Virus record (IMG/VR): IMGVR_UViG_3300010354_007429
Span: 1 to 22,256 of that record
Source of the DNA: a virus
Direction: 5' to 3' (one strand)
DNA length: 22,256 nt
In this document: in pieces, positions 715-16,853 of the stretch
Layout: each line of letters begins with the position of its first letter
How positions within the stretch are numbered: position 1 is the stretch's first letter
Made by a program: the position numbers and the translations under genes
The notes under the pieces: model-generated
Databases searched by the model: none
What the model was told of the DNA's origin: nothing
What the model saw: only the letters and a program-made list of their open reading frames with translations

Positions 715-717
715 TTT

Positions 718-2814: not shown

Positions 2815-3533
2815 AAAATTATTTGTTTGGCTATGCAAGACCTGTTTATAACATTTGGGGACCATGGAAAGGATTTGGGTTAAATCCATCATGGCAGGAA
2901 GATCATAAAGTTTATGAACATATGTATAAACTTAGCAGACTGTCTGCAAAGCATTTTTTACAAGGTGAATGGGAAGAGTTTTGTGTAACATCACCAGTAT
3001 TAGATGCTAGATTACATCAGATTAATGTATGGTATACAATTAAGGAATTATGGCTTAAAGAACCCTGTAACATTTTATGTATGGGTGCAGATACTTTGTT
3101 TATTAAACCAACAGAAGTATTTGGTAGGTATGATAAAATGACAATGTTTAACTATACCGACCCCAAAACACATTCAGAAGTTGTAAATTATTTTAATGAT
3201 GATGTTAGATACTATCCAGCTTCTATGGATCCTAAAGTTTGGGAAATGGGAGAAAAGTTAATGGATAAATGGTTTGCCCATAATGAAAATAATTGGGCAG
3301 CAGGCCAAATTATTCATAACTTACAAATGTGGAGTCAGGGTGTTGAACTTAATGATGTTCATGACCCAAATATGGCCTTTCAAGTTTTATATTTTGATGA
3401 AGAACAAGACAGTAAGTGGAACGGCAGTCCGTTCGAAGATGCCCATATATTACATCTACATGGGAGTAGAGGCATACAAGGAAGACTGCCAGTTATGGAA
3501 GCGATTCTAACTCAATTAGGAATAGAACAATAA
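2811..3533 (+). CDS. Putative glycosyltransferase (GT-A-like), function not proven
   Basis: 240 residues, start ATG overlapping the previous stop by 4 bases. MGADTLFIKP at residues 91-100 resembles the acidic metal and nucleotide-sugar motif of GT-A glycosyltransferases (compare the D-x-D context DADTL of GT8-type enzymes). NDDVRYYPASM (129-139) has the N-x-G/D-V-x-Y-Y-P look of an acceptor-side loop. AHILHLHGSRG (211-221) resembles the C-terminal His-rich motif of some small transferases. No signal peptide or membrane segment is seen. The location inside a sugar operon supports a glycan role, but I do not recognise a characterised homologue. The donor and acceptor are unknown. Confidence 0.55.
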   Translation: MKNYLFGYARPVYNIWGPWKGFGLNPSWQEDHKVYEHMYKLSRLSAKHFLQGEWEEFCVTSPVLDARLHQINVWYTIKELWLKEPCNILCMGADTLFIKPTEVFGRYDKMTMFNYTDPKTHSEVVNYFNDDVRYYPASMDPKVWEMGEKLMDKWFAHNENNWAAGQIIHNLQMWSQGVELNDVHDPNMAFQVLYFDEEQDSKWNGSPFEDAHILHLHGSRGIQGRLPVMEAILTQLGIEQ

Positions 3534-4162
3534 TGTTACATTTAATTTCACAGCGAGAAGGCTTGTGGTGGCCCAAAGAAGATCATGGATGTTGGGACTA
3601 TAATACTAATCATGCACCTAATATTCCCAAAGAACTAGCACAATATGTTCCATATAAAGGAGTTGTAGTACAGGCTGGTGGTAATTGTGGTCAATATATT
3701 GTTCAGTATGCAGACCTATTTGAACGAGTTTATACTTTTGAACCTGATCCGCTCAACTTCCTTTGCCTAACACTTAACTGTCAAAAAACAAATATTTACA
3801 AATATCAAGCTTGTGTAGGCAATCAACGGAATCTAGTTGAACTAGCGGTAAATAGTTCAGATGTGGGTGCTACTCATATAGATCCAAGTAAGCCAGGATT
3901 AATTCCTACCTTGCGTATAGATGATTTAAACTTGGATAGATGTGATCTTATTCAATTAGATACTGAGGGTTTTGAATATTTTGGGATTCAAGGCGCAGAA
4001 GAAACAATTACTAAATTTAAGCCTGTTTTAAGTATTGAGTGGTGGGAACCATGGGCTGCTCGTTATGGAATTACATTAGAAATGTTAGAAAATTATCTTA
4101 GTCGTTGGAATTATGTAATAGCTGGATATCATGTAACTGATAGAGTTTATGTAGCAAAATGA
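3533..4162 (+). CDS. FkbM-family SAM-dependent methyltransferase
   Basis: 209 residues. The start ATG shares a base with the previous TAA (TAATG), a sign of translational coupling. VVVQAGGNCGQY (about 44-55) is SAM motif I, VYTFEPDPLN (67-76) places the acidic residue that binds the ribose, and DLIQLDTEGFE (138-148) is the characteristic FkbM motif. LSIEWW near residue 167 also fits. FkbM enzymes generally O-methylate sugars or similar hydroxylated compounds. The surrounding sugar genes suggest a glycan hydroxyl as the target. The C-terminus overlaps the next gene by 4 bases. Confidence 0.85.
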   Translation: MLHLISQREGLWWPKEDHGCWDYNTNHAPNIPKELAQYVPYKGVVVQAGGNCGQYIVQYADLFERVYTFEPDPLNFLCLTLNCQKTNIYKYQACVGNQRNLVELAVNSSDVGATHIDPSKPGLIPTLRIDDLNLDRCDLIQLDTEGFEYFGIQGAEETITKFKPVLSIEWWEPWAARYGITLEMLENYLSRWNYVIAGYHVTDRVYVAK

Positions 4163-5106
4163 AAACAGTTTTAATTACAGGAGCTACTGGCTTTATAGGG
4201 CATTTTTTAGTTGAAGAATTTATTAAGGACCATAAAATTATCTGTTTAGTTAGGCCTAAGACTAGAAATTTAAAAAGAATAGCAGTCTATACAGACAGAT
4301 TATCCATTATAGAACACGACATTTCTAAAAGTTTAAAACCACTTGTAGATTCTTTAGGCACTATAGACATTATCTTACATGCAGGTGGTAATGCTAGTGC
4401 TGCAGATAGTATTGCCGACCCGGTAAGTGTTATCAATGATAATGTTATAGGTACCATCAATTTATTAGAATTTGCGAGACTACAAAAACTTGAAAGGTTT
4501 GTCTATTATAGTTCTGGAGAAGTTTTTGGTCCTGTTCCTAATGGTTCAGACAGTAAGGAGACAGATCCCTATAATAGCAATAGCCCTTATGCTGCTAGTA
4601 AAGCAGCAGGGGAAGAACTTTGTCTTAGTTACGCTAGTAGTTTTGGTGTTCCGGTAAGTATTGTACATATTAATAATACTTTTGGTCCTAAATGCCAAGT
4701 AAACCGTTTGCCAACCATTATTATAAACAACATTATGAACGGTAAGCCTGTGAATATTCATTCAGATTTAAATGGTAATATTAGTGGTAGACGATGGTTT
4801 TATGCAGGCGATGTTGCATTACATACTAAATTTATTTTAAGCAATCAAAAGTTAAACTGTGAGAAATGGAATAGTGCCGGTAATAAATTTATTAACAATT
4901 TAGAATTCGCTCAGCTTATTGCTCAATCTATGCAAAAGGATTTACAGTATGAACTTATTTTAATTAATAATCCAAACTATAAGTTATGTTTCAGTGTTAA
5001 TCCAAGTAAGCTTTACGATCTTGGGTATAAAGATAAGTTTACTTTAGAAGAAAGAATACAACAAACAACGGCATGGTATAGTAAAAATCCTAGTTGGCTT
5101 TTATAA
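4159..5106 (+). CDS. NAD(P)-dependent nucleotide-sugar epimerase/dehydratase
   Basis: 315 residues, extended short-chain dehydrogenase. The glycine motif TGATGFIG (G8, G11, G14) binds NAD, and YYSSGEVFG followed by SPYAASK (Tyr144, Lys148) is the active site. RRWFYAGDVA matches the family's conserved C-terminal RxxxxVxD segment. The length fits a full-size epimerase or 4,6-dehydratase of the UDP/dTDP/GDP-sugar kind, but the exact reaction cannot be read from sequence. It closes the run of overlapping sugar genes. The next gene begins 8 bases after its stop. Confidence 0.85.
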   Translation: MKTVLITGATGFIGHFLVEEFIKDHKIICLVRPKTRNLKRIAVYTDRLSIIEHDISKSLKPLVDSLGTIDIILHAGGNASAADSIADPVSVINDNVIGTINLLEFARLQKLERFVYYSSGEVFGPVPNGSDSKETDPYNSNSPYAASKAAGEELCLSYASSFGVPVSIVHINNTFGPKCQVNRLPTIIINNIMNGKPVNIHSDLNGNISGRRWFYAGDVALHTKFILSNQKLNCEKWNSAGNKFINNLEFAQLIAQSMQKDLQYELILINNPNYKLCFSVNPSKLYDLGYKDKFTLEERIQQTTAWYSKNPSWLL

Positions 5107-5114
5107 ATATATGT

Positions 5115-5534
5115 ATGTCTATATATTGGCAAGAATATGTTCGTGCTGCTTATGATTTAGTATTAGAAAGTGAAGGCAGATGTAACATTTTTTTGGATCA
5201 TGATGTAGAGGCATATATCGTTCATTTATTTGCAAAAAATTTCAATAGAACTGATATAGGCCAACAGCCTATTGCTATTCAATTAATGCAAGAGATGCAA
5301 AAACCAAAAAAACATGCTAAATATCAACCCATTGCAGATGAATGTTTACTTATAAATAGTTATCCTCTCAAAAGGAAACATTGGCCTAGTGAAACTTACT
5401 ATAGGGACATGGGCTGTATAGCCTATAGTTTGGCAAATTTAATAGAAATAGAAAACAATTTTGAAAATGCAACTAAGATTTTACATAGAATGTTTTTAGG
5501 TTTGAACAATAACGGAGTTGACTTGAGTCTTTAA
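5115..5534 (+). CDS. Conserved-looking protein of unknown function
   Basis: The longest frame starts at a TTG at 5094 inside the preceding gene. I prefer the ATG at 5115, which gives 139 residues beginning MSIYWQEYVRAAY and avoids a 13-base overlap. No strong Shine-Dalgarno lies in front of it. The box TATAAATA at 5102-5109 sits just upstream (see findings). The protein is soluble, with no signal peptide or membrane segment, and is mostly predicted helical. LLINSYPLKRKHWPSETYYRDMG is a polar, aromatic-rich stretch spanning about residues 77-99, given here only as a landmark. I recognise no family. It is the last gene before the short gene at 5569. Confidence 0.65.
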   Translation: MSIYWQEYVRAAYDLVLESEGRCNIFLDHDVEAYIVHLFAKNFNRTDIGQQPIAIQLMQEMQKPKKHAKYQPIADECLLINSYPLKRKHWPSETYYRDMGCIAYSLANLIEIENNFENATKILHRMFLGLNNNGVDLSL

Positions 5535-5568
5535 TTAATATATAATAATTACTACTCAAGGAGCAATC

Positions 5569-5730
5569 ATGTTTGAAAATATCGAAATTAGAAAAGTTGC
5601 AAATGGATTTATTCTTACCATTACCACAGAAGACGACACCAAAGAATTTGTATATGACACCAGTCGGAAAGCTTTGCGTGTTATTAAACAATACATTGAT
5701 GCAAGTAATAATAATAAAGATTCTGAATAA
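5569..5730 (+). CDS. Small hypothetical protein, 53 residues, ahead of the radical SAM gene
   Basis: ATG at 5569 follows a strong Shine-Dalgarno (CAAGGAG at 5557-5563, 5 bases of spacing). The frame encodes MFENIEIRKVANGFILTI and continues through TEDDTKEFVYDTSRKALRVI to the stop at 5728-5730. The pattern of short beta strands followed by a helix suggests a small folded protein rather than a leader. The next ATG lies 2 bases after the stop, so the radical SAM gene is probably translated by coupling. I know similar small proteins as hypotheticals in marine T4-like phages, but the function is unknown. Being next to a radical SAM enzyme, it could be a partner or substrate; that is speculation. 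Confidence 0.75.
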   Translation: MFENIEIRKVANGFILTITTEDDTKEFVYDTSRKALRVIKQYIDASNNNKDSE

Positions 5731-5732
5731 TA

Positions 5733-7097
5733 ATGGCGAATGAAGCTAAATTTATTACAGTCTTCAATAATTTAAAAAATAAATTAGATACAGTAAGTCC
5801 ATCATTTTGTGCTGCAAAATGGAAACAAGTATCTATATTATTAAATCAGGGAAGAACTCATAGTTGTCATCATCCAGGCACACACGAGATTCCTTTAAGT
5901 GAGTTAAAAAATAATAGCAGTGCACTTCATAATACTAATTATAAAAAACAACAGCGTCAATTAATGTTGCAGGGTTCAAGACCTAAAGAATGTGACTATT
6001 GTTGGCGAGTTGAAGATAGTAATACTGATGGTTTTAGTGATAGATTTTACAAAAGCATCACACAATGGGCAGATATAGATAATACTATTTTAGAAATAAA
6101 AAAAAATGAATGGGATTACGATGTAGTGCCTAGTTACTTAGAAGTCAGTTTCAGCAGCCTATGTAATTTTAAATGTATATATTGTGGTCCGAATTCCAGT
6201 ACAAGGTGGCAAGATGAAATGCGTACCTATGGCAATTACCCCTTAAAAAATATGCCTTTTAATAGTAATAATTACAATAAAACTGATGAAATAAGAAATT
6301 TATATATTGAAGCTTTTTGGGAGTGGTTTCCTAATATTGTACATAAATTGTATCATTTAAGAATTACAGGAGGAGAACCTTTATTATCTGACGAAACCTT
6401 TAAAGTTTTAGATTTTTTAGAAAACAATCCACAGCCTAATCTTATTTTTAATATTAATACAAATTTATGTGTACCAGATTATTTGATAGAAAAATTAGTT
6501 AAAAAATTAGTTTATTTACAAAATAATAACTGTGTGAAAAATGTTACTATATTTACAAGTTGTGAAGCAACAAAACAACAATCAGAATATATACGATTTG
6601 GCATAGATTATATGCAATGGTTAAAAAATTGTGAATATCTGGCAGGTAATATTCCAAATGTAAAAATAACCATAATGGCCACATACAACATTTTAAGTGT
6701 CTTTACATTTACTGATTTTGTTAAAGATATGATTTGCTTAAAACAAAAATTTACCCAGCCAAAAAACTTTTACATTGACATACCCTATTTAAGACATCCA
6801 GAATTTTTAGCAGTATGGAACATTCCTGATAAATTTTTTCATTATATAGAAGATACTATAAGTTTAATGTCCAGTCACATAAAAGATGAATATTTTACAA
6901 TTGCAGAAGTGTCAAAAATTAAAAATATTCTTGTACTGTGTAAAAGCTATAACGAAGACCCAACTAAACAAGATGTCTTAAAACATAATAGGCGTAATTT
7001 CGGTCTTTATGTTCAAGAGCTAGACAGACGACGCAATACCAATTTTGTAGAAACCTTTCCTGAACTTGCTCCTTTTTTGTCTGATTGGCAGGCTTGA
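5733..7097 (+). CDS. Radical SAM protein with extra N-terminal cysteine cluster
   Basis: 454 residues. The radical SAM cluster motif CxxxCxxC is CNFKCIYC (C144, C148, C151), and GGEP at 213-216 is the SAM-binding motif. Before the barrel, C26, C45, C87 and C90 (with HHPGTHE and ECDYCWRVED) form a second cysteine group, in the style of auxiliary [4Fe-4S] 'twitch' or SPASM-like clusters but placed at the N-terminus. Such proteins occur in marine T4-like phages; their substrate is unknown. The family makes a 5'-deoxyadenosyl radical and modifies peptides, nucleotides or sugars. The gene starts 2 bases after the 53-residue gene, and its TGA stop lies inside the -35 box of the next promoter. Confidence 0.88.
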   Translation: MANEAKFITVFNNLKNKLDTVSPSFCAAKWKQVSILLNQGRTHSCHHPGTHEIPLSELKNNSSALHNTNYKKQQRQLMLQGSRPKECDYCWRVEDSNTDGFSDRFYKSITQWADIDNTILEIKKNEWDYDVVPSYLEVSFSSLCNFKCIYCGPNSSTRWQDEMRTYGNYPLKNMPFNSNNYNKTDEIRNLYIEAFWEWFPNIVHKLYHLRITGGEPLLSDETFKVLDFLENNPQPNLIFNINTNLCVPDYLIEKLVKKLVYLQNNNCVKNVTIFTSCEATKQQSEYIRFGIDYMQWLKNCEYLAGNIPNVKITIMATYNILSVFTFTDFVKDMICLKQKFTQPKNFYIDIPYLRHPEFLAVWNIPDKFFHYIEDTISLMSSHIKDEYFTIAEVSKIKNILVLCKSYNEDPTKQDVLKHNRRNFGLYVQELDRRRNTNFVETFPELAPFLSDWQA

Positions 7098-7122
7098 CAA
7101 AAAATCAATTATTTCTTATAAT
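7094..7122 (+). promoter_or_regulatory. Sigma70-type promoter P1
   Basis: Perfect -35 TTGACA (7094-7099) and perfect -10 TATAAT (7117-7122) with a 17-bp spacer. The expected start of transcription is near 7129, about 27 bases before the gene at 7156. The -35 box contains the TGA stop of the radical SAM gene. This is the first of a series of such promoters and marks the start of the early-type block. Its leader lacks the shared sequence found in later ones. Confidence 0.85.
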
Positions 7123-7155
7123 AGCTATCCTTACAATGTAATTTTTTAACAAATT

Positions 7156-7410
7156 ATGAAACTTAAATATTACACTGATCCTGGACATGGTTGGATTGCA
7201 ATTAAGCGTAAAGTATTAAACGATCTAGAAGTGGCAGATAAAATTACAGTTTTTAGCTATCAAAAAGGCCAAACTGTATATCTAGAAGAAGATTGTGATG
7301 CTTTTTTGGTTATGCAGAAACTGTCTGAAAAAGGTATTACTGTTACTTTTGATCGTAAACACACCAACAACCGTAGTCCTATTAGAAACTATAATCGTTT
7401 CGATAAGTAA
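7156..7410 (+). CDS. Conserved phage hypothetical protein, 84 residues
   Basis: Starts MKLKYYTDPGHGWIAIKR and contains YQKGQTVYLEEDCDAF. I recall this pattern from hypothetical proteins of many tailed phages (PGHGW followed by YLEEDCD), without a known role. The end is basic (RKHTNNRSPIRNYNRFDK). No Shine-Dalgarno is evident before ATG 7156; the leader is AT-rich. It is driven by promoter P1 and followed 11 bases later by the next gene. The small size and strong promoter are consistent with an early takeover function, which is inference. Confidence 0.8.
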   Translation: MKLKYYTDPGHGWIAIKRKVLNDLEVADKITVFSYQKGQTVYLEEDCDAFLVMQKLSEKGITVTFDRKHTNNRSPIRNYNRFDK

Positions 7411-7421
7411 GGAATTACAGT

Positions 7422-7682
7422 ATGAACAGCCAACAAATTTTGAGTCATATTGAACAATGGGCATCTACTAAAGGTTTTAATGCTCCATATGGAATTCTTA
7501 CAGGTTCACATGTAAACAAAAAAGGTAACAAGTACCTTTCAATTACTTTTGGTCGTGCCCGAACATTAGATGCCACAGTAGAAATTTATAACAGGAATTT
7601 CATTGTATTGCGTACAAGTAGATCGGGAAGTCAAGTCTTTAAATCTGTTACAGATTTACAACAAGTTTTGGATCAACTATAA
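7422..7682 (+). CDS. Small hypothetical protein, 86 residues
   Basis: ATG at 7422 lies 8 bases after an AAGGA ribosome binding site (7409-7413) that overlaps the stop of the preceding gene, so both are likely cotranscribed from P1. The protein starts MNSQQILSHIEQWASTKGF and has a mixed alpha/beta composition with a basic middle (KKGNKYLSITFGRARTL). No family is recognised. The stop TAA is followed 4 bases later by the -35 box of promoter P2. Confidence 0.75.
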   Translation: MNSQQILSHIEQWASTKGFNAPYGILTGSHVNKKGNKYLSITFGRARTLDATVEIYNRNFIVLRTSRSGSQVFKSVTDLQQVLDQL

Positions 7683-7686
7683 TTTG

Positions 7687-7715
7687 TTGACAAATATGCG
7701 GCAATTTTGTATAAT
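7687..7715 (+). promoter_or_regulatory. Sigma70-type promoter P2
   Basis: TTGACA (7687-7692) and TATAAT (7710-7715), 17-bp spacer, both perfect. Downstream lies the first, slightly diverged copy of the shared leader (ACAGTAAACAAA). The distance from the -35 to ATG 7745 is 58 bases, matching the 59 bases seen in other cassettes. This supports ATG 7745 over ATG 7739 for the next gene. Confidence 0.88.
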
Positions 7716-7744
7716 GTTTTTACAGTAAACAAACTGAGATGAGC

Positions 7745-7945
7745 ATGAAAACTTACAAAGAGACAATCCGAAGAGAAGCGACGGGAGTGGTGGCTGGTAT
7801 GTTCTCTGGTGGTGGCAGTTATGCTGATAGTCAGGTGGTACATTGTATTGCTCGCATCTATGAAGTGTCTGCCAGTAGGGTAGATGCAGACATCAAGAAG
7901 CTTTTAAGTAGTCCAAAGTTTATGCGTGAAGCAAAGGGGTGCTAG
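7745..7945 (+). CDS. Small hypothetical protein, 66 residues, relatively GC-rich
   Basis: Two ATGs are possible, 7739 and 7745. I choose 7745 because a GAG core at 7735-7737 then has normal spacing and because the position aligns with the start codons in the other promoter cassettes. The protein begins MKTYKETIRREATGVVAGMF, then a glycine-rich turn (SGGGSY) and a helical C-terminal half (HCIARIYEVSASRVDADIK) that looks like a small helix-turn-helix fold. Function is unknown. Base composition is clearly richer in G+C than in the sugar genes, suggesting a different origin. Confidence 0.75.
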   Translation: MKTYKETIRREATGVVAGMFSGGGSYADSQVVHCIARIYEVSASRVDADIKKLLSSPKFMREAKGC

Positions 7946-7946
7946 T

Positions 7947-8207
7947 ATGGACAAGGCAATCCACATTATAGAAGGCGTGGGCGAGTACGGTCTTGATGTA
8001 GATCACAGTCCAGGCGTAGGCGGATACTATGTCAAGCTCTACGATGGATCCTACGATTCGTCGGGCTTCGACACAGAGCGGGAAGCCCGTGAAGAACTAG
8101 AATACTTGGTTTCGATGAAGAAGAAAGAACCGCAGTCCTATCGCCCTGCTTATTATGATGCCGAGGGCGGATCTATGTGCAATGGTATAGGACGGGACTA
8201 TTTTTAA
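7947..8207 (+). CDS. Small hypothetical protein, 86 residues, GC-rich
   Basis: A longer frame reaches back to GTG 7926, but ATG 7947 has a good AAAGGGG ribosome binding site (7933-7939) and starts just after the preceding stop (7943-7945). The protein begins MDKAIHIIEGVGEYGLDV, has a glycine/tyrosine-rich centre (GVGGYYVKLYDGSYDSSGF) and a charged helix (TEREAREELEYLV). It is rich in aromatic residues and appears compact and soluble. No family is recognised. G+C is near half, well above the roughly one third of most of the window. Confidence 0.78.
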   Translation: MDKAIHIIEGVGEYGLDVDHSPGVGGYYVKLYDGSYDSSGFDTEREAREELEYLVSMKKKEPQSYRPAYYDAEGGSMCNGIGRDYF

Positions 8208-8210
8208 CGG

Positions 8211-8239
8211 TTGACATTAAATCGGTTTGCTGTTACAAT
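8211..8239 (+). promoter_or_regulatory. Sigma70-type promoter P3
   Basis: TTGACA (8211-8216) and TACAAT (8234-8239), 17-bp spacer. The leader carries a variant of the shared sequence (AGAGTAAACGAAACGGAG), and the -35 to ATG distance is 59 bases. This is the most diverged full member of the cassette family. Confidence 0.85.
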
Positions 8240-8269
8240 AGTGGTAGAGTAAACGAAACGGAGTTAGAA

Positions 8270-8428
8270 ATGAAAGTTGCTGTTTATAGGTCTCAGTCTT
8301 ACTATGTTATTTCTACTATGGGCGAAAGCATCGAATTGGCTCTTACACCGCATGGTGCGGGATCTTTTATTGTTCATCAAGATTTTGTCAAGTTTATTGG
8401 TGAATGGGTAGCACCCAGTACAAAATAA
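8270..8428 (+). CDS. Small hypothetical protein, 52 residues
   Basis: A longer frame begins upstream at 8177, but its first 31 codons cross promoter P3 and the leader. The true start is almost certainly ATG 8270, which follows the GGAG ribosome binding site at 8259-8262. The product starts MKVAVYRSQSYYVISTMGES and ends EWVAPSTK. It is likely a small beta-rich protein. Function is unknown. The stop is 4 bases before the next -35 box. Confidence 0.75.
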   Translation: MKVAVYRSQSYYVISTMGESIELALTPHGAGSFIVHQDFVKFIGEWVAPSTK

Positions 8429-8432
8429 ACGA

Positions 8433-8461
8433 TTGACAAATAATCCGATATTTAGTATAAT
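8433..8461 (+). promoter_or_regulatory. Sigma70-type promoter P4 with inverted repeat
   Basis: TTGACA (8433-8438) and TATAAT (8456-8461), 17-bp spacer, both perfect. Expected transcription start A8468 coincides with the first base of the shared leader ACAGTAAACAAAACGGAG. An inverted repeat with arms CCGATATT (8445-8452) and AATATTGG (8459-8466), one mismatch, straddles the -10 box. Across 54 bases P4 differs from P5 at only two positions. Confidence 0.9.
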
Positions 8462-8491
8462 ATTGGTACAGTAAACAAAACGGAGTAAAAC

Positions 8492-8683
8492 ATGAATGCA
8501 AATGATCGTCATAATCTAAAGTTTCTTCGTAGTCTTTCTGCCGATGCACTTGAAAATTTTCTTAGCCAAGCATCAGAAGATGATGTTCAATATGCTGAGG
8601 AACTTCTTGCAGCTTGGGAACAAGAACTGAACGCAGAACTTTTTGGGTTCGAAAGTAACTTTAACTCTGCAACTATGCACTAG
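8492..8683 (+). CDS. Small acidic hypothetical protein, 63 residues
   Basis: ATG 8492 follows the shared leader with its ACGGAG ribosome binding site. The protein begins MNANDRHNLKFLRSLSADAL and is largely acidic and helical (SQASEDDVQYAEELLAAWEQEL). It resembles many small phage acidic proteins of unknown role; no family is recognised. It is followed 8 bases later by another very small helical, acidic gene. Confidence 0.78.
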   Translation: MNANDRHNLKFLRSLSADALENFLSQASEDDVQYAEELLAAWEQELNAELFGFESNFNSATMH

Positions 8684-8691
8684 GACAAAAT

Positions 8692-8826
8692 ATGCCTAAT
8701 AATTTCAATGTAGACGAACTGAATTCTTTGCTACAAATCGAAGCAGAACAAGAGCAGGATCTCGTAATTCAGGCAGCATATAGTGAGTTTCTGCAGGAAA
8801 TGTTTCGCAAGTGTTATTCTGATTGA
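8692..8826 (+). CDS. Very small acidic hypothetical protein, 44 residues
   Basis: ATG 8692 opens a 44-codon frame reading MPNNFNVDELNSLLQIEAEQ and continuing as an acidic, glutamine-rich helix to the end FRKCYSD. A weak AGGA lies at 8682-8685. Its TGA stop (8824-8826) falls inside the -35 box of P5, so gene and promoter share bases. Codon use is like its neighbours and it fills the space between 8683 and P5 exactly, which supports it as real, but the evidence is positional only. Confidence 0.6.
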   Translation: MPNNFNVDELNSLLQIEAEQEQDLVIQAAYSEFLQEMFRKCYSD

Positions 8827-8851
8827 CAAATAATCCAATATTCAGTATAAT
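8823..8851 (+). promoter_or_regulatory. Sigma70-type promoter P5 with perfect inverted repeat
   Basis: TTGACA (8823-8828) and TATAAT (8846-8851), 17-bp spacer. Arms CCAATATT (8835-8842) and AATATTGG (8849-8856) are perfect reverse complements separated by 6 bases, and the -10 box lies across the centre and right arm. The expected start A8858 lies downstream of the dyad, so it would act as DNA, not as an RNA hairpin. The shared leader ACAGTAAACAAAACGGAG follows. Confidence 0.9.
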
Positions 8852-8881
8852 ATTGGTACAGTAAACAAAACGGAGTAGCAA

Positions 8882-9277
8882 ATGGAATGGAACTCAATCA
8901 TTGATACCAAAGAAGGACTGCGTTTGATGCTGGGCCAGACCTTTGTTAGAGTGAAGGGTGCTGTAGGCGACCATGAGATGATCTTTGAAACTACCAACGG
9001 CGAACGCTTCGTATTTACCCACTTCCAGGATTGTTGCGAGAGTGTAGACATCAATGACATCGTTGGTGATCTGCAGGACCTGGTGGGTGAGCCCTTGCTG
9101 GTTGCAGAAGAAGTTCAGGGTGAAGTGCCTGCAGACTTTGAGGATGAGTACACCGAGTCCTATACCTTTACCTTCTACAAGTTCGCTACCCGCCGGGGCT
9201 ATGTTGATGTTCGTTGGTTGGGTGAGTCAAACGGTTATTACTCTGAATCGGTCGATCTGTGTCATATCAAGGGCTAA
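8882..9277 (+). CDS. DUF7448-like phage protein, 131 residues
   Basis: Starts MEWNSIIDTKEGLRLMLGQT. The motif HFQDCCESVDINDIVGDL followed by VGEPLL, and WLGESNGYYSESVDL near the end, match what I remember as the DUF7448 family of phage hypotheticals. The role is unknown. G+C is near half, clearly richer than the flanking early genes, and codons such as CTG, GGC and ACC are common. With its own almost identical promoter cassette upstream (P5) and another downstream (P6), it looks like an exchangeable gene unit. Ribosome binding site ACGGAG is part of the shared leader. Confidence 0.82.
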   Translation: MEWNSIIDTKEGLRLMLGQTFVRVKGAVGDHEMIFETTNGERFVFTHFQDCCESVDINDIVGDLQDLVGEPLLVAEEVQGEVPADFEDEYTESYTFTFYKFATRRGYVDVRWLGESNGYYSESVDLCHIKG

Positions 9278-9295
9278 AGCACTTCTTAGAAACGG

Positions 9296-9324
9296 TTGAC
9301 AAATAATCCAATATTCGCTATAAT
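9296..9324 (+). promoter_or_regulatory. Sigma70-type promoter P6 with inverted repeat
   Basis: TTGACA (9296-9301) and TATAAT (9319-9324), 17-bp spacer. Arms CCAATATT (9308-9315) and AATATTGA (9322-9329) keep 7 of 8 pairs of the dyad seen at P5. The shared leader ACAGTAAACAAAACGGA follows, and the -35 to ATG distance is again 59 bases. Confidence 0.9.
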
Positions 9325-9354
9325 ATTGATACAGTAAACAAAACGGAACAGAAA

Positions 9355-9768
9355 ATGGCCTACATTAGTCAAGAACGCAAAGCTCAAATCGCCCCAGTTG
9401 TCAAAGCTATTTGTAAAAAGTATGGCATCAAAGCCAGCCTCAAAGTAGATAATCATAGTACTCTTGTTCTAAATGTTAGTCAAGGCGACATTGACTTTAT
9501 TTACAATTTCAATAGAACTGTGGGCGAATACAATCGCAGTCTCAATAAAGTTATGGAGCAAAATACTTCCGGAAGTATTAGTGTGAATCCCTATCACTTT
9601 CAGAAGCATTTCAGTGGACAAGCTTTGAGCTTCCTCGAAGAAGTCTATGCTGCTATGATGAACGGCAATCATGACAATTCTGATATTCAATCTGATTACT
9701 TTGATGTAGGTTGGTATGTGAATATCAATATTGGTCGTTGGAATAAACCCTATGCTCTTGTAAAATAA
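9355..9768 (+). CDS. Conserved phage hypothetical protein, 137 residues
   Basis: Begins MAYISQERKAQIAPVVKAIC and continues with KYGIKASLKVDNHSTLVLNV. It ends in SDIQSDYFDVGWYVNINIGR followed by WNKPYALV. I recall this family from many unrelated tailed phages as a conserved hypothetical, without a named role. Predicted mixed alpha/beta, soluble. It is expressed from P6 with a GGA ribosome binding site in the shared leader. The next short gene starts 14 bases after its stop, so the two may be cotranscribed. Confidence 0.82.
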   Translation: MAYISQERKAQIAPVVKAICKKYGIKASLKVDNHSTLVLNVSQGDIDFIYNFNRTVGEYNRSLNKVMEQNTSGSISVNPYHFQKHFSGQALSFLEEVYAAMMNGNHDNSDIQSDYFDVGWYVNINIGRWNKPYALVK

Positions 9769-9782
9769 CAAGAGACAATTTT

Positions 9783-9950
9783 ATGTTCGATAAATTTGAA
9801 CTTTTGGTAATGCATAATTTGCTGGTAGAATCCCTTGCAACGGAATACCAAGATCGTGTTGATAAGGGATATTCTGCTAGTGAGATAAAGCCGCAATTGC
9901 ATGGTTTGTATCAACTATTAAATAAGTTAAATGGAATGCTAAGTGAATAG
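9783..9950 (+). CDS. Small hypothetical protein, 55 residues
   Basis: ATG 9783 opens a 55-codon frame: MFDKFELLVMHNLLVESLAT, then a charged helix and the end LNKLNGMLSE. A weak purine run (AAGAGA) sits about 8 bases upstream. It overlaps the next gene by 8 bases at 9943-9950. It is probably all-helical. No family is recognised. Confidence 0.65.
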   Translation: MFDKFELLVMHNLLVESLATEYQDRVDKGYSASEIKPQLHGLYQLLNKLNGMLSE

Positions 9951-10125
9951 ACTTTCTATTGAAAAAACTGCTCAGGGCACTTTTGTACGAGGTCCTGTAA
10001 GCTCTACAATTCCGTCTCTAGTAGCATACGCTAGAGCAAGTGGACTGTCATTCAATACTTATAAAGTGGTATCTGACCCATTTACTAGTAAATTTAGGAC
10101 TTTTGGTATCCAAATTATTGGTTGA
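9943..10125 (+). CDS. Small hypothetical protein, 60 residues, GTG start
   Basis: GTG 9943 overlaps the end of the preceding gene; a GGA at 9934-9936 offers a ribosome binding site with 6 bases of spacing. The product starts MNRLSIEKTAQGTFVRGPVS and ends KFRTFGIQIIG, likely a small beta-rich domain with one helix. Its TGA stop (10123-10125) lies in the -35 box of P7, repeating the compact arrangement seen at P1 and P5. Function is unknown. Confidence 0.65.
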   Translation: MNRLSIEKTAQGTFVRGPVSSTIPSLVAYARASGLSFNTYKVVSDPFTSKFRTFGIQIIG

Positions 10126-10150
10126 CAAATAATCCAACCATTGCTATAAT
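10122..10150 (+). promoter_or_regulatory. Sigma70-type promoter P7
   Basis: TTGACA (10122-10127) and TATAAT (10145-10150), 17-bp spacer. The first 14 bases equal those of P5 and P6, but the dyad and shared leader have diverged; the ribosome binding site is CAGGAAG. The -35 to ATG distance is 61 bases. Confidence 0.9.
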
Positions 10151-10182
10151 ACTTGAATAGTTTAACAACACAGGAAGCAGAA

Positions 10183-11202
10183 ATGACTCAAGCAACTATT
10201 CGTATCCGTCAAGGTTCGTATCGTAACCGCTCTGTGGATGGTATGACTTTTGAACTGGTTACGCAATTTACCAAAACTGCCAAAAATAGTTTTGTTACTG
10301 TACGCAATGGTGGAAATTTTCCCAACATGCCTGAAACCATTCGTGTAAATGTATCTAGTCCTGCAGATTATGAGTTTGTGTCTGGTGCAGTGATTGAACC
10401 TACTGCAGTAGAAAATACTGTGGAAACAGATCAACAAGTTATGGAACGAATCCGTGAACGATTCGAAATCCTTACGGACATGACTAAGGCTGCAATCAGT
10501 GGTGAGATTCGTGCTATGATTGTTAGCGGGCCACCTGGTGTTGGTAAAAGTTTTGGCATTGAGCGTGAAATTGAAAAAGCTACTTTGCTAGATCAACTTG
10601 CTGGCCGTCGTCTTCGTGCAGAGGTTGTAAAAGGTAGCGCCACTGCTCTAGGCTTATATTGCACCCTTTACAAGTATAGTGATCCTAATTGTATTTTGGT
10701 TTTTGATGACTGTGATAGCATTCTTCTGGATGATGTTGCCTTGAACTTGCTTAAAGGTGCACTAGATTCAGGCAAGAAGCGTAAAATTTCTTGGCTTAGT
10801 GATAGTAATATGTTGCGCCGTGAAGGAGTGCCCGACACTTTTAACTTTAATGGTAGTGTGATTTTCATCACTAATCTTAAATTTGACCAGATGAAATCAC
10901 AGAAACTTAGAGACCATCTGGATGCCTTGCAAAGTCGCTGTCACTATCTGGATCTAACTTTGGATACCATGCGGGACAAAATTCTACGCATCAAACAAAT
11001 TGCTAAGGACGGTGAATTGTTTGAAGGATACGATTTTGATCCAAGTGTGCAAGAAGAAATTATTGCATTTATGGATACCAATAAGAACAAACTGCGTGAA
11101 ATGAGTTTGCGTATGGCACTGAAGATCGCAGATCTTCGCAAAAGCTTTCCTAAGCGTTGGGCTGCAATGGCTTCTAGTACTTGTATGAAACCTTCTGTAT
11201 AA
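10183..11202 (+). CDS. AAA+ ATPase
   Basis: An in-frame TTG at 10153 would start inside the leader at the transcription start; ATG 10183 after an AGGAAG ribosome binding site is the right choice, giving 339 residues. An N-terminal region of about 100 residues of unknown fold is followed by Walker A GPPGVGKS (116-123), Walker B ILVFDDCD (171-178), a sensor-1-like IFITN (227-231) and a candidate arginine finger in LQSRCHYLDL (near R252). Similar AAA+ proteins occur in large tailed phages with no settled function; they may remodel DNA or protein complexes early in infection. It is the largest gene of the early block. No downstream helicase motifs are present, so it is not gp41- or gp44-like in an obvious way. 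Confidence 0.85.
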   Translation: MTQATIRIRQGSYRNRSVDGMTFELVTQFTKTAKNSFVTVRNGGNFPNMPETIRVNVSSPADYEFVSGAVIEPTAVENTVETDQQVMERIRERFEILTDMTKAAISGEIRAMIVSGPPGVGKSFGIEREIEKATLLDQLAGRRLRAEVVKGSATALGLYCTLYKYSDPNCILVFDDCDSILLDDVALNLLKGALDSGKKRKISWLSDSNMLRREGVPDTFNFNGSVIFITNLKFDQMKSQKLRDHLDALQSRCHYLDLTLDTMRDKILRIKQIAKDGELFEGYDFDPSVQEEIIAFMDTNKNKLREMSLRMALKIADLRKSFPKRWAAMASSTCMKPSV

Positions 11203-11214
11203 TAGGAGATAAAA

Positions 11215-11655
11215 ATGGGACTTGATCAATATGCATATGTAACCCTACAGGCAGGCGAACGAGATAGTTATTTCCAGAGCAATGATGGTGCTTTTGTAAA
11301 CGGTGAATGGGTAGTACCTAATAAATCCAAACCTCGTGAGTTAGCATATTGGCGTAAGCATCCAAATCTTCAAGGCTGGATGGAAAATTTATGGTATAAT
11401 AAAAATGCTAGCCATGAAAGTTTGCAAGAAGGAGAAAATCGTTACAATTTTAATGGTATCGAACTTGAACTTACACGAGAAGATATAGACAAACTTGAAC
11501 AAGATGTATTGAACGGCAAATTACCCCTTACTGAAGGATTCTTTTTCGGTCAACCTTCTGATGACTATTATAGAGAACAAGACTTAAAATTTTGTCGTGA
11601 GGCTCGTGCAGAACTATTCCTAGGACTGAAGGTATTCTATAACAGCAGTTGGTAA
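11215..11655 (+). CDS. Conserved phage hypothetical protein starting MGLDQYAY
   Basis: 146 residues. The opening MGLDQYAYV, RELAYWRKHPNLQGWMENLW in the middle and GFFFGQPSDDYY later are features of a family seen in many phages, sometimes labelled phosphoglycerate kinase in error; nothing here supports that enzyme. A strong AGGAG (11205-11209) precedes ATG 11215. It lies 12 bases after the AAA+ gene, probably in the same transcript from P7. Role unknown. Confidence 0.82.
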   Translation: MGLDQYAYVTLQAGERDSYFQSNDGAFVNGEWVVPNKSKPRELAYWRKHPNLQGWMENLWYNKNASHESLQEGENRYNFNGIELELTREDIDKLEQDVLNGKLPLTEGFFFGQPSDDYYREQDLKFCREARAELFLGLKVFYNSSW

Positions 11656-11661
11656 ACAGTA

Positions 11662-11988
11662 ATGACCATTGGATATAGTGTCTACCAAAGACTTCAACAA
11701 CTAGAGCTTAGAGCTAAAAAACTTGGCTTTAAGATTGGAAAATCGCAATATTCAGATTTTTTTGCTTTAGCGCCAGGTGACCCAGACTGTTTACCTTTTT
11801 ATACACGAGAGGTAGAAATTTATACAGGCTCTTTGCAGGATCTGGAAACATGGCTATTAGGATATGAGCAAGCTTTCTTCTATCTTAAATTAATTAAAGC
11901 TACTACAGACAGCAAAATTCAGAAGTGTGAAGAAAAAGTAAAACATGAATTATTGCTCACTATTCTAAAACAAAATAACTCTGCTTAG
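11662..11988 (+). CDS. Conserved-looking phage hypothetical protein, 108 residues
   Basis: Starts MTIGYSVYQRLQQLELRAKK and contains PFYTREVEIYTGSLQDLETW and LLGYEQAFFYL. This arrangement (YxRLQxLExRAKxLGF, then a tyrosine-rich strand, then a WLxGxE helix) is familiar from hypothetical proteins of marine T4-like phages. It ends in a charged helix. Its last three codons and the stop form the left arm and loop of the intrinsic terminator that closes the transcript. Confidence 0.78.
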   Translation: MTIGYSVYQRLQQLELRAKKLGFKIGKSQYSDFFALAPGDPDCLPFYTREVEIYTGSLQDLETWLLGYEQAFFYLKLIKATTDSKIQKCEEKVKHELLLTILKQNNSA

Positions 11989-12002
11989 GCAGAGTTTTTT
12001 TT
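11977..12002 (+). terminator. Intrinsic terminator with the stop codon in the loop
   Basis: Perfect 8-bp stem AACTCTGC (11977-11984) and GCAGAGTT (11989-11996), tetraloop TTAG, followed by a run of eight T (11995-12002). The TAG in the loop is the stop codon of the preceding gene. The T run also supplies the first two bases of the next promoter's -35 box. Confidence 0.92.
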
Positions 12003-12029
12003 GACTTACTGTGTATACTATTATATAAT
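12001..12029 (+). promoter_or_regulatory. Sigma70-type promoter P8, probably giving a leaderless mRNA
   Basis: TTGACT (12001-12006) and TATAAT (12024-12029) with a 17-bp spacer. The usual start 7 bases after the -10 would be A12036, the A of the ATG of the next gene. The -35 box overlaps the terminator's T run, so one transcript ends exactly where the next begins. Confidence 0.8.
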
Positions 12030-12035
12030 AGCCTT

Positions 12036-13076
12036 ATGTGGAAATATGCAGAAGATATTATAGAATTTATTGCAGGATATCGCGAAATATCCGGTAAACT
12101 TTTACAGCCTTGGGAACGAATTCCAAGTCCACTAAGTTTAGCTAGATATGATGTGCAAATTTTGGATAGTTTAGCATTACAAACGGTAGATAATTCACGA
12201 GCCTATACACAAAAGCAAAGTGAACTAGCACTTAAGATCATTCACAAATACCGCAAACAGTTAAACAAGTTAGGTCTTATAATAGATGGGGATGTTCAGG
12301 AATTAAAGTTTAAATTAGGTATAAGGTTTGTCGATCAATCTAAAACCATTTGTCTTAAAGACGGGAAAATACAAGTAAAGTTTCCTTATAATACAGAATG
12401 GATTAATAATATAAAGAGCATTGCTACAAATGGATATGGTAAAGTAGAATTTGACCATGAAAATAAAATTTGGAATTTAGGGTTAACAGAATACATTGTA
12501 AATTATATTGTAGCATTTGGCAATTTGCATCAATTTAGTATTGACCCTACACTAATTTCTGCAGCAGAAAAAATTATAGAAATGGAAACAATTCCTTATA
12601 AAATAGAACTTACTCAGGTTGATGGTCAGTTAATAGTGTCGCATGCTCCAGAAAGTTTATTACATTATCTTAAAGAAAATGTAGGGGAACTATCAATAAA
12701 TAATTTATACAAGTTAGTTGATTATAGTAGTGTGTTGGAATATACTGTAGATCAACAACTAATTAATTTGTTAGCACAAAGTGTAAGTGAGGATGAAATA
12801 GAGTTGCTTACCAAGCGTAAACTAGAAGCACAAAGTTCAGAACAAAAAATTGAACATATTATTAAGTATGCAGAAAAGACTGATAGGTTGCCAGTATATG
12901 TTTATGATACGGGCACGCCTAAAAAGGATACAGAAAAAATTGTATATCTTAATACAAAAAAAACTAGTAAATTTATAGGTAAAATAAAACTTATGGTGTC
13001 AATGACTAATGTATTGGTTGGATACAAAAAGCAGGACTGGATTAGACGAGCAGAAAAGGTAATTTTTCTTAAATGA
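12036..13076 (+). CDS. UvsW-adjacent protein of unknown function (possible HARP-like segment)
   Basis: 346 residues, ATG 12036, no upstream ribosome binding site because of P8's position. A helical N-terminus (to about residue 80) precedes a segment KIQVKFPYNTEWINNIKSIA (111-130) and VEFDHENKIWNLGL (137-150). It resembles in outline the HARP-like substrate module found with SNF2-type annealing helicases (hydrophobic strand, 'DxxxKxW' turn, helix). That likeness is inference from pattern only. The C-terminal end (KLMVSMTNVLVGYKK followed by RRAEKVIFLK) looks like the last strand-helix of a helicase-like domain, but no Walker motifs are seen. The 4-base overlap with the UvsW gene and its own promoter suggest a working partnership with it. 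Confidence 0.6.
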   Translation: MWKYAEDIIEFIAGYREISGKLLQPWERIPSPLSLARYDVQILDSLALQTVDNSRAYTQKQSELALKIIHKYRKQLNKLGLIIDGDVQELKFKLGIRFVDQSKTICLKDGKIQVKFPYNTEWINNIKSIATNGYGKVEFDHENKIWNLGLTEYIVNYIVAFGNLHQFSIDPTLISAAEKIIEMETIPYKIELTQVDGQLIVSHAPESLLHYLKENVGELSINNLYKLVDYSSVLEYTVDQQLINLLAQSVSEDEIELLTKRKLEAQSSEQKIEHIIKYAEKTDRLPVYVYDTGTPKKDTEKIVYLNTKKTSKFIGKIKLMVSMTNVLVGYKKQDWIRRAEKVIFLK

Positions 13077-14527
13077 AATGCAAACTAATTATACGAGACG
13101 AAGTAAATGTAAAGCTAGAGGGACTAGAGTTAAGCCATAGAAAAACCTTAACAAATAAATTCAAGTATGAAATTCCTGGAGCTAGATACAGCCCAAGTGT
13201 GCGTTTAGGCAGATGGGACGGCAAGGTTGGTTTTTTTACCTTAGGTGGAAGTACCTTTATTAATTTACTGTCAGACATTCTGCCCTTTCTAGAGCAAAAT
13301 AATTATGACATTGACATAGAGGATTTAAGGGACTATACAACAACCTTTAATTTTAACGCGGTTAAAGAGGATAGTTTTGCACATATAAATTGGCCAGACA
13401 AACATCCACAAGCTGGTAAACCTATACTATTAAGAGACTATCAGTTAGATATTGTCAACAGGTTTTTAGAGAACCCTCAATGCATACAAGAAGTTGCCAC
13501 TGGTTCGGGCAAAACTATTATGACTGCAGTAATGTCCGCAAGTGTGCAAAACTACGGTCGTAGTATTGTAATTGTGCCAAATAAAAGTTTAGTGACACAA
13601 ACAGAGTCTGACTATATCAATGTAGGACTTGATGTGGGTGTATATTTTGGTGATCGTAAGGACTATAACAAACAACATACTATCTGTACATGGCAAAGTC
13701 TTAATAATTTATTAAAAGACACAAAGAATGGCGAGGCAGTGTGTACAATTGAAGAATTTATTGAAGGTGTGGTATGCGTGATAATTGACGAAGCTCATAT
13801 GGCTAAGGCTGATTCTTTGAAATTGTTATTAAGTTCTGTGTTTAGTAAAGTGCCACTTAGATGGGGGTTAACTGGTACTATTCCTAAAGAAGAATATGCA
13901 TTCATGGCCTTAAAATGTTGTATTGGAGAAGTAGTGGGCAGATTGAGTGCAAGTGAACTTCAAGAGGCAGGGCATTTGGCTCAATGTCATGTGAATATTT
14001 TGCAACTTACTGATTTTACAGAGTACAAGACTTATCAACAAGAGTTGAAATATCTATTAGAGAATAAGGAAAGGCTAACCTACATTGCAAAAACGGTAGA
14101 AAAAATAAGGCAATCTGGTAACACATTAGTATTGGTAGATAGAGTTGCTGCAGGTAAAGAATTAACGGGCCAACTAACAGATGCAGTTTTTGTTAGTGGC
14201 ACGACAAAAGCAGCTAGTAGAAAAGAGGAGTATGACCAAGTAGCAACCAGTGAGAAAAAAATAATTGTAGCAACCTATGGTGTTGCTGCGGTGGGTATTA
14301 ACATCCCACGAATTTTTAACTTAGTTTTACTAGAACCTGGTAAAAGTTTTGTTAGAGTAATTCAAAGTATTGGTAGAGGTATTAGGAAAGCAGAAGATAA
14401 GGATCATGTAGAAATTTGGGATATTACCAGTACTTGTAAGTTTAGCAAACGACATCTTACCAAACGCAAAGCTTTTTACAAAGACGCCAATTATCCTTTC
14501 AGTGTGGATAAAGTAGAATGGCAGTAA
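13073..14527 (+). CDS. uvsW: UvsW-like superfamily 2 recombination helicase
   Basis: 484 residues. Motifs in order: RDYQ (121-124, Q-motif-like), Walker A ATGSGKT (142-148), DEAH (239-242), LTGT (266-269, motif III), VATYG with GINIP (399-412, motif V region), and QSIGRGIRK (431-439, motif VI). The N-terminal 110 residues with LGRWDGKVGFF form the small UvsW DNA-binding domain. T4 UvsW is about 587 residues, so this version is shorter, as in other marine T4-like phages. The enzyme unwinds R-loops and moves branched DNA, switching origin-dependent to recombination-dependent replication. The start overlaps the preceding gene by 4 bases. Confidence 0.92.
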   Translation: MKCKLIIRDEVNVKLEGLELSHRKTLTNKFKYEIPGARYSPSVRLGRWDGKVGFFTLGGSTFINLLSDILPFLEQNNYDIDIEDLRDYTTTFNFNAVKEDSFAHINWPDKHPQAGKPILLRDYQLDIVNRFLENPQCIQEVATGSGKTIMTAVMSASVQNYGRSIVIVPNKSLVTQTESDYINVGLDVGVYFGDRKDYNKQHTICTWQSLNNLLKDTKNGEAVCTIEEFIEGVVCVIIDEAHMAKADSLKLLLSSVFSKVPLRWGLTGTIPKEEYAFMALKCCIGEVVGRLSASELQEAGHLAQCHVNILQLTDFTEYKTYQQELKYLLENKERLTYIAKTVEKIRQSGNTLVLVDRVAAGKELTGQLTDAVFVSGTTKAASRKEEYDQVATSEKKIIVATYGVAAVGINIPRIFNLVLLEPGKSFVRVIQSIGRGIRKAEDKDHVEIWDITSTCKFSKRHLTKRKAFYKDANYPFSVDKVEWQ

Positions 14528-14545
14528 AGAACACAAAACATAGTA

Positions 14546-14574
14546 TTGTTTTATGAAAAAAAATATAGTATAAT
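14546..14574 (+). promoter_or_regulatory. Possible sigma70 promoter P9
   Basis: A perfect -10 TATAAT (14569-14574) lies 17 bases after TTGTTT (14546-14551), which matches only part of the -35 consensus. The expected start is near 14581, giving a short leader before ATG 14595. It is weaker than P1-P8, but it occupies the only real gap in the replication block. Confidence 0.55.
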
Positions 14575-14594
14575 AACAACTTAGAGAAATTTAT

Positions 14595-15098
14595 ATGCGA
14601 TTGCTAACTTTAGATAATACAGTTTATGATTTAACAAGTATACCCGAGGAAGTGGATGATGTAAGATTTTGTGTTTTGGACAACAGTGATCCTAAAGATC
14701 CAGACTATTTTTTTATCCCTTTAATTTTTTTAGAAAGTTTTAATAGTCCAGCCTTAGTATTGCGTATAGGTCCTCATGAAATTACAATGCCCATAGATTG
14801 GCAGCTTTTAATTGGCGAACATGATTTAGGAGATCTAGAAGTAGTGCCACTTACTAGTTTAAATGATAGAGGATTCAGTGCATTTGGGTTTAACCCACTT
14901 AGCAGTTTTAGACCCACATTTTATCCTATAGAAGTGGTGGATATTTATCAAGATGTAAAATGGTATTTTCCTAAACTAAAGCCAGGACAGTTATTGGCCA
15001 TACCTTTAGAAACCACTGGAGCAAAACCATTATGTGTTTATTTTGTAAAAGATATTAGTAGACAGAGTGAAGTTATAAATTATAATAAATGTTGGTAA
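14595..15098 (+). CDS. Conserved marine T4-like phage protein of unknown function
   Basis: 167 residues. PEEVDDVRFCVLDNSDPKDP, DYFFIPLIFLESFNSPALVL and FNPLSSFRPTFYP are extended segments I recall as strongly conserved in marine T4-like phages next to replication genes. The protein is beta-rich and soluble, with conserved prolines and aromatics. The near-invariance of long segments argues for a structural or complex-forming role, but none is established. An AGAGA precedes ATG 14595 at about 9 bases. The next gene begins 1 base after its stop. Confidence 0.75.
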   Translation: MRLLTLDNTVYDLTSIPEEVDDVRFCVLDNSDPKDPDYFFIPLIFLESFNSPALVLRIGPHEITMPIDWQLLIGEHDLGDLEVVPLTSLNDRGFSAFGFNPLSSFRPTFYPIEVVDIYQDVKWYFPKLKPGQLLAIPLETTGAKPLCVYFVKDISRQSEVINYNKCW

Positions 15099-15099
15099 C

Positions 15100-15366
15100 A
15101 TGAACACCATTTATGTAAATAATAATACTATATATGAAAGTCCTGACGGGGGAACAACTGTCTATGCTAGAGAAATGCAAAGTACAGAACGCACATTAGT
15201 ATATGAAAATATGTCAGTTCGTATTGATCCTATGAAAGGATTGAAATATAATATATCATATGCTAATTTCCTTGAAATACTTGAAATGGCAGATAGAAAT
15301 CCAACATTACGGGATTATGTTGATCAAATGATTTCTACTTATAATTTATTGAAGACTCATGGATAA
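15100..15366 (+). CDS. Small conserved-looking hypothetical protein, 88 residues
   Basis: ATG 15100 lies 1 base after the preceding stop. The N-terminus MNTIYVNNNTIYESPDGGTT, with YESPDGGxTVY, is a motif known to me from hypothetical proteins of marine T4-like phages. The second half is helical (NFLEILEMADRNPTLRDYVD). It overlaps the gp62-like gene by 8 bases. Short size and location might suggest gp33, the late-transcription co-activator, but the sequence lacks the patterns I would expect, so I leave it unnamed. Confidence 0.7.
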   Translation: MNTIYVNNNTIYESPDGGTTVYAREMQSTERTLVYENMSVRIDPMKGLKYNISYANFLEILEMADRNPTLRDYVDQMISTYNLLKTHG

Positions 15367-16500: not shown

Positions 16501-16853
16501 TGAGCAGTAAAATTGTAAAAAAAGCCTGGGGAAACGAAACTATATGGGCCGATAATGACAAATATTGTGCCAAGTTTTTAAACTTTACTAAAGGATCAAA
16601 ATTTAGTATGCATTTTCATGCAGAAAAATTGGAAACTTGGTATGTGCTGTCAGGTAAATTTTTTTTAAAATGGATAGATACTAAAAACGCTAAACAATAT
16701 GGTCAAACATTGGAGATAGGACAGACATGGACAAATCTGCAATTGGTCCCACATCAACTATTTTGTTTGGAAGAAGGCACAATAATTGAAGTTAGTACAA
16801 AAGACAGTGAAGAAGATAATTATAGAGTATTGCCTGGTGATAATCAATCATGA
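16500..16853 (+). CDS. Cupin-fold protein (sugar isomerase-like)
   Basis: 117 residues, GTG start 16500 sharing a base with the previous TAG. It has a single cupin barrel with metal-ligand candidates H38, H40, E45 (MHFHAEKLETWYVLSG) and H85 (VPHQLF), which matches the HxHxxxxE...H pattern of small mannose-6-phosphate isomerase-like cupins. The gene starts the heptose block and overlaps the HldD-like gene by 4 bases. It could isomerise or bind a phosphosugar, perhaps filling a step not otherwise encoded; this is inference. Confidence 0.78.
   Translation: MSSKIVKKAWGNETIWADNDKYCAKFLNFTKGSKFSMHFHAEKLETWYVLSGKFFLKWIDTKNAKQYGQTLEIGQTWTNLQLVPHQLFCLEEGTIIEVSTKDSEEDNYRVLPGDNQS

Follow-up and report, generated by a model that had tools for sequence, protein, structure and literature searches.

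Cassette series at the locus

The analysed DNA (the window; 22,256 b) is a complete IMG/VR record and thus a fragment of an uncultivated phage, predicted from its sequence to be T4-type but distant from cultured phages. Relatives of its phrog_1250 ATPase occur in T4-like and PA5oct-like phages (33–42 % identity among the matches listed), and a UvsW_N/helicase is encoded at 13073–14524. Directly upstream of the ATPase gene lies a variable array of small genes (Table 1).

Perfect matches to TTGACA-17-TATAAT occur at six + strand sites (7094, 7687, 8433, 8823, 9296 and 10122), a count not reached in any of 100 dinucleotide-shuffled versions of the window (shuffle mean 0.09). The leader ACAGTAAACAAAACGGAG is present exactly at 8468 and 8858, with one mismatch at 9331 and with two mismatches at 8246, compared to a mean of 0.03 per shuffle when up to 3 mismatches are allowed. 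Five of the perfect promoter sites plus the weaker site at 8211 are followed by the leader (full or partial) and a start codon; the proteins encoded downstream belong to different families. A blind repeat search also recovers this cassette family (59–64 b). An earlier note on this DNA had described six such cassettes before unrelated genes, and their number is indeed well above shuffle expectation. Likewise, the distance from -35 to ATG is as described there (58 b in P2, 59 b in P3–P6 and 61 b in P7), and P4 and P5 are identical at all but 2 of 54 positions while preceding unrelated genes (for an unknown protein of 63 aa and a DUF7448/phrog_2650 protein, respectively). The interval 8433–9354, in which the note had placed the series, comprises P4–P6; the whole series spans 7687–10182.

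Table 1 Cassettes and genes of the array (window coordinates)
Feature	Position	Strand	Remarks
Promoter match, perfect sigma-70-type, without leader, upstream of gene 7156	7094..7122	+	
P2 cassette, TTGACA-17-TATAAT and partly diverged leader	7687..7744	+	Event 1 left crossover partner; junction with P4 in G060/G061/G003
Genes behind P2 (7745–7945; second ORF ~7950–8207)	7745..8207	+	Absent from near-identical relatives; G+C 47.5 %
P3 cassette, diverged, TTGACA-17-TACAAT	8211..8269	+	Spacer has AAATCGGTTTG
Gene behind P3, 52 aa	8270..8428	+	
P4 cassette	8433..8491	+	Event 1 right crossover partner
Genes behind P4: 63 aa (8492–8683), 44 aa (8692–8826)	8492..8826	+	
P5 cassette	8823..8881	+	Event 2 left crossover partner; dyad CCAATATT-N6-AATATTGG over -10
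Gene behind P5, DUF7448/phrog_2650, 131 aa	8882..9277	+	Missing in five near-identical contigs; G+C 48.5 %
P6 cassette	9296..9354	+	Event 2 right crossover partner
Gene behind P6, phrog_10415, 137 aa	9355..9768	+	
P7 cassette	10122..10182	+	
AAA ATPase, phrog_1250	10183..11202	+	Conserved anchor gene closing variable array

The 5' half of P7 has the version typical of the window, but its 3' half (ACTTGAATAGTTTAACAACACAGG) differs from the other window cassettes and is closer to cassettes preceding the ATPase genes of other phages. The gene behind P3 has an orthologue of 92 % identity in G010 that is preceded by G010's own cassette version, and P3 itself is possibly an immigrant cassette that arrived with its gene. 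The P3 spacer (8211–8239) has AAATCGGTTTG in common with the G059/L115 version (CAAAATCGGTTTGGTAC).

A DNA similarity search with positions 7000–12000 yielded a single match of 99 b, located in the P5 gene (9158–9256; 75.8 % identity to Bacillus phage vB_BauS_KLEB27-1). Together with the presence of P5 protein relatives in Pseudomonas and Bacillus phages, this match suggests that the P5 gene family is widely exchanged. The array is flanked by sugar-modifying genes (1495–2814, 4159–5106 and 16850–18757) encoding a DegT aminotransferase, NAD-dependent epimerases as well as cytidylyltransferase- and sugar-kinase-like ORFs; a radical SAM protein (PF04055, E 2e-10) is encoded directly 5' of the array (5733–7097). 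A 9-b periodic repeat (GGTGCTACAGGTGCAACTGG..., 20574–20737), which would be collagen-like Gly-x-y if in frame, is followed by a 252-b direct repeat (78 %, 20786–21307); both probably lie within a fibre-like gene.

Indels against near-identical contigs

Contig G060 (14.4 kb, about 97 % identical) aligns across window positions 616–16230 with exactly two gene-scale indels: (i) event 1, 746 b from the start of P2 to the start of P4, and (ii) event 2, 473 b from the start of P5 to the start of P6. Aligned segments between the window and G060/L004 abut only at P2|P4 and P5|P6, with overlaps of 47 and 63 b. In place of P2, its genes, P3, its gene and P4, G060 has a single hybrid cassette, the 5' flank of which equals P2 and the body and gene of which equal P4. 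The single cassette at event 2 is likewise a hybrid, identical with P5 as far as the leader and with P6 from GGAAC onwards. The two junctions are found again in contigs of other metagenomes: both in G003 and G061, and P5|P6 in L019 and G062. Since the G+C contents of the window-only genes behind P2 and P5 (Table 1) exceed that of the whole window (34.3 %), with the P5 gene ranking in the top 0.7 % of windows, these genes appear to have been gained in the lineage of the window.

Cassettes in other phages and survey of breakpoints

The search for the cassette in related phages, proposed in the earlier note, was positive in many contigs. The exact leader was retrieved from 16 viral contigs, in most cases with the promoter directly 5' and an ATG 6–9 b 3' of it. 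ATPase relatives contributed 80 further loci and relatives of the P5 or P6 gene 160, and two promoter patterns retrieved 39 stretches. About 25 cassettes are present in the 154-kb contig G004, about 14–24 (depending on stringency) in G002 and about 8–12 in G007. In many large relatives, only one or a few cassettes of the window-type pattern were found, which counts against the mechanism proposed below. Many uncultivated T4 relatives carry the same predicted promoter-leader block before unrelated small genes. A window-type cassette was not found at the ATPase of the cultured relative PA5oct, and the promoter matched nowhere in the stretch examined of Cronobacter phage S13. That the cassette derives from a host or a prophage was considered and rejected, TATAAT-N6-AYAGTAAACAAAACGGAG being without match in genome contigs. 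In G002 (18238–34990; L128–L129), about 20 cassettes have the leader ACACTAACACAACGGAG or ACATGATGAACACAACGGAG in common, but the spacers are variable, and several of them yield G+C-rich hairpins that differ from one another (GCGGGCTCAATGCCCGC, GAGAGGTCAAAAGACCT).

Breakpoints were surveyed in 258 IMG/VR contigs (170 groups), defining a clean indel as 120–3000 b flanked by ≥250 b of ≥88 % identity, and a cassette site as promoter plus Shine-Dalgarno site. Junctions fell into cassette sites in 17 of 30 indels, although such sites make up 2.8 % of bases (P about 3e-19); since the loci were gathered near cassette-associated genes and some events have a contig in common, the set is enriched for events, which are not entirely independent. 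After deduplication, 16 of 29 indels had their junction in a cassette, against a stricter expectation based on the 23 % of gene starts with such a site (P 1.8e-4), while the other 13 lay away from cassettes. The repeat overlap at cassette junctions was mostly 35–76 b. In at least nine cases the hybrid is visible base by base, with the 5' flank equalling the left and the 3' flank the right cassette (e.g., G060, G061, L038/L043, L194/L192, L311/L313, L283/L288, L278/L288, L227/L230 and L204/L227). Gain and loss between close relatives have breakpoints inside cassettes, as the earlier note had proposed to check, and the hybrid cassettes are their footprints.

In the comparison of L038/L046 with L043, flanks are about 100 % identical and the junction is a hybrid. 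The extra ORF of L043 (L043:5254-5568), situated between two cassettes and absent from L038 and L046, shows weak likeness to GIY-YIG endonucleases (E 0.003, under the curated cut-off). A 645-b insertion in L100 (8008–8664) with an SDR-like dehydrogenase ORF is not located at a cassette; its site corresponds to window junction 14527/14543, between the gene for the UvsW-like helicase and its neighbour.

Phage-specific cassette dialects

The cassette version (dialect) differs by phage: TTGACAAATAATCCAATATTCAGTATAATATTGGT in the window, TTGACAAATATTCCATTATTTCTTATAATATTGGT in G007, TTGACCCATAATTCATTTAATTGTATACTAGTAAT in G037 and TTGACCAATAATTCCCAAAATGCTATAATAATGGC in G046/G047. Orthologues from different phage groups (protein identity ≥50 %) were compared with unrelated genes of the same phage. 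In 934 of 1118 pairs, the best cassette of an unrelated same-phage gene was closer in sequence than that of the orthologue; in 140 it was less close. As several cassettes compete here with a single orthologue, the count is biased in favour of dialects; the ATPase family makes up the bulk of pairs (880 of 1043). A mean-based paired test (0.544 vs 0.472, Wilcoxon P 4e-4) and the gradient described below are free of this bias. The P5 gene illustrates the pattern: protein identity to its orthologue in G002 is 80 %, but the cassettes of the two genes are only 9 % alike (spacer and discriminator), as against 91 % within the window. The ordinary promoter of a groES-like gene, used as control, behaves oppositely and follows descent (0.52–0.96 between orthologues, 0.17–0.35 within phage).

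Crossovers inside the cassette predict a gradient, with the upstream half belonging to the phage and the leader end to the gene. Across 92 phages and 61 gene families (one record per group), same-phage minus orthologue identity amounted to +0.146, +0.120 and +0.109 in the successive spacer thirds (intervals above zero), +0.062 in the discriminator and +0.066 in the leader, and then fell to -0.013 at +7..+12. The predicted promoter spacer follows the phage and the leader end the gene. Within G004, distance and likeness of cassettes show a weak trend (Mantel p 0.07). The notion of a mobile or homogenised unit put forward in the earlier note is supported by these data, the within-phage likeness being independent of the gene driven and hybrid cassettes being present at gene indels.

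Stem-loops and leader structure

The earlier note had regarded the cassettes as devoid of a stem-loop. For terminators this is correct, and for the leader RNA largely so (no structure in P4 and P6, weak pairing in P5), but as a whole it is only half right, since the best copies carry an 8-bp dyad across -10. The dyad is perfect in P5 (CCAATATT-CAGTAT-AATATTGG) and near-perfect in P4 and P6; the read-through strand of P5 can fold a weak 8-bp hairpin over -10, with broken versions in P4 and P6. No terminator-like site was found at the window's cassettes, nor within 80 b 5' of the cassettes of the window and its nearest phages (0 of 29 in the four closest). Across 502 cassettes such sites amounted to 8 % (2 % in shuffled sequences; T4 control 2 of 13). 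Spacer/-10 dyads with arms of at least 7 b are enriched across the cassettes compared (8.0 %; 1.8 % shuffled). With respect to a stoperator-like array of operators for a phage repressor, dyads are thus frequent, but their base pairs vary between copies, and no regulator was identified. A stem-loop as general defining feature was rejected, the mean fold z being -1.3 in T4, compared to about -0.9 in both the window and G002 and roughly 0 in G004. It is possible that, in some lineages, the dyad serves a regulator or forms a hairpin blocking read-through translation, the latter being proposed on account of the spacer-leader complementarity in T4. For RegB, which cleaves early leaders at GGAG and was considered as a reason for the conserved leader, PF10715 matched none of 23 records; the control search was equally without match, so that this negative is uninformative.

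Proposed mechanism and alternative explanations

Very probably, the predicted sigma-70 promoter/ribosome-binding units double as recombination sockets for accessory genes, in a PeSL-like manner (PeSL, promoter early stem-loop). Each cassette would constitute a full expression-start unit preceding a small accessory gene of an uncultivated T4-type phage, with a consensus sigma-70 promoter, transcription beginning at the A of ACAGTAAAC, a leader that is short, rich in A and unstructured, and a Shine-Dalgarno site. Such units are expected to be active as promoters early in infection, with transcripts starting at the predicted A. As same-phage copies are alike over ~55 b, homologous recombination between two of them, by a recombinase presumed to act there, could delete or insert the intervening gene with expression undamaged. 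After the exchange, the 5' part of the cassette and the upstream neighbour would remain, while the gene would bring its own leader end. Repeated exchange would homogenise the upstream half per phage, yielding the dialect, with the leader end going along with the gene.

Selection alone is a conceivable though rather doubtful alternative: within-phage likeness would suit one trans-acting factor, i.e., the given host's RNA polymerase or a phage regulator binding the spacer/-10 dyad, and indels would end at cassettes merely as gene boundaries. Compatible with this are the enrichment of dyads, the equal within-phage likeness of the immobile ATPase promoter, and the extension of dialects over tens of kb (G007 cassettes from ~41 to 69 kb, most with the spacer start AATATTCC or AATAATCC). 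However, junctions exceed the gene-start expectation and are hybrids with mostly long repeats, the dyad is not conserved (pair broken in P4, P6 and G007 alleles), and a change from phage-like to gene-like along the cassette would be unexpected for a binding site.

Entry of the genes through homing endonucleases or transposition of their own, with the cassettes as passive neighbours, is quite improbable. The weakly GIY-YIG-like protein of the L043 insert would fit, but no mobility gene was recognised in the window inserts (DUF7448 in the P5 insert, small unknown genes in the P2–P4 insert), and inserts without endonuclease genes also have hybrid junctions inside the cassette. Least probable is an assembly artefact, in which short-read assemblers merged near-identical repeats and lost the gene between them. 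All genomes are metagenome assemblies, and repeats of ~55 b, being close to k-mer sizes, could in principle collapse; as a general cause this is unlikely, since the same junctions are present in independent assemblies from several metagenomes, private substitutions occur and the extra genes are of foreign composition. Moreover, the cases are many and independent, and a difference of ~3 % throughout marks the members of the pairs as different phages. Returning to cassettes as recombination sockets, a speculative extension, itself rather unlikely, would view the dialect as a recombination passport: incoming genes would cross over within the leader of a resident-like cassette and have their upstream half quickly converted to the resident dialect, so that phages of different dialects would be partly isolated in gene exchange and those of the same dialect would draw on a common accessory pool.

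Comparison with known systems

According to Arbiol et al. 2010 (GBE 2:140) and Comeau et al. 2014 (GBE 6:1611), PeSLs of T4-type phages reportedly combine a promoter with a stem-loop/terminator, and indels between close relatives are said to occur at them. Early promoter activity and mini-circles arising from the exchange are further traits of PeSLs. The parallel drawn in the earlier note is apt with respect to promoter, repetition and breakpoints: in both cases sigma-70 early-type promoter units are repeated among small non-essential genes of T4-type phages, and indels between close relatives run from cassette to cassette. The window cassette differs in that it lacks a terminator and reaches through the leader to the start codon, and in that its sequence dialects differ per phage. 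Because of the missing terminator, the cassettes are called PeSL-like and not filed as PeSLs, the role of which in T4-type phages is cited in PMC4503421.

T4 early promoters are strong, conserved beyond -35/-10 and possess a conserved leader up to the GAGGAG site (PMC2988021). The cassettes resemble them in the extended conservation and the conserved leader, but there is no sequence likeness, the T4 promoters being TTTACA/TACTAT, TG-extended and followed by the leader ACAACTATCAACTAC, with spacer-leader hairpins in some copies. Looser parallels than PeSLs are the SAS/ESAS of cluster K mycobacteriophages, short repeats at the starts of unrelated genes with subcluster-specific consensus (PMC3203893), and a TATA-like motif of the archaeal myovirus HGTV-1, which precedes most ORFs of a genome arm and was proposed to aid shuffling (PMC3950731). 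SAS is a 13-b element (GGGATAGGAGCCC) of unrelated siphophages for which no sigma-70 promoter is described, and differs in sequence from the window cassette, ESAS being 17-b inverted repeats; the HGTV-1 motif is an archaeal promoter with an inverted repeat, and the available part of its text contains no breakpoint evidence. The literature search yielded no other described repeated-promoter shuffling unit besides PeSLs.

The cassettes provide a simple finder of accessory genes in uncultivated phages, many of them without known function and some likely serving host takeover or counter-defence, and the dialects a sequence handle on which phages have a common gene pool. The concept is known from T4-type phages; added here are the terminator-free promoter-leader form, the per-phage dialects with their spacer-to-leader gradient, and many breakpoint footprints from wild populations, a direct record of how accessory genes are exchanged among T4-type phages, with their expression predicted to stay intact. 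The principle is thereby extended from promoter-terminator PeSLs to a terminator-free promoter-leader unit.
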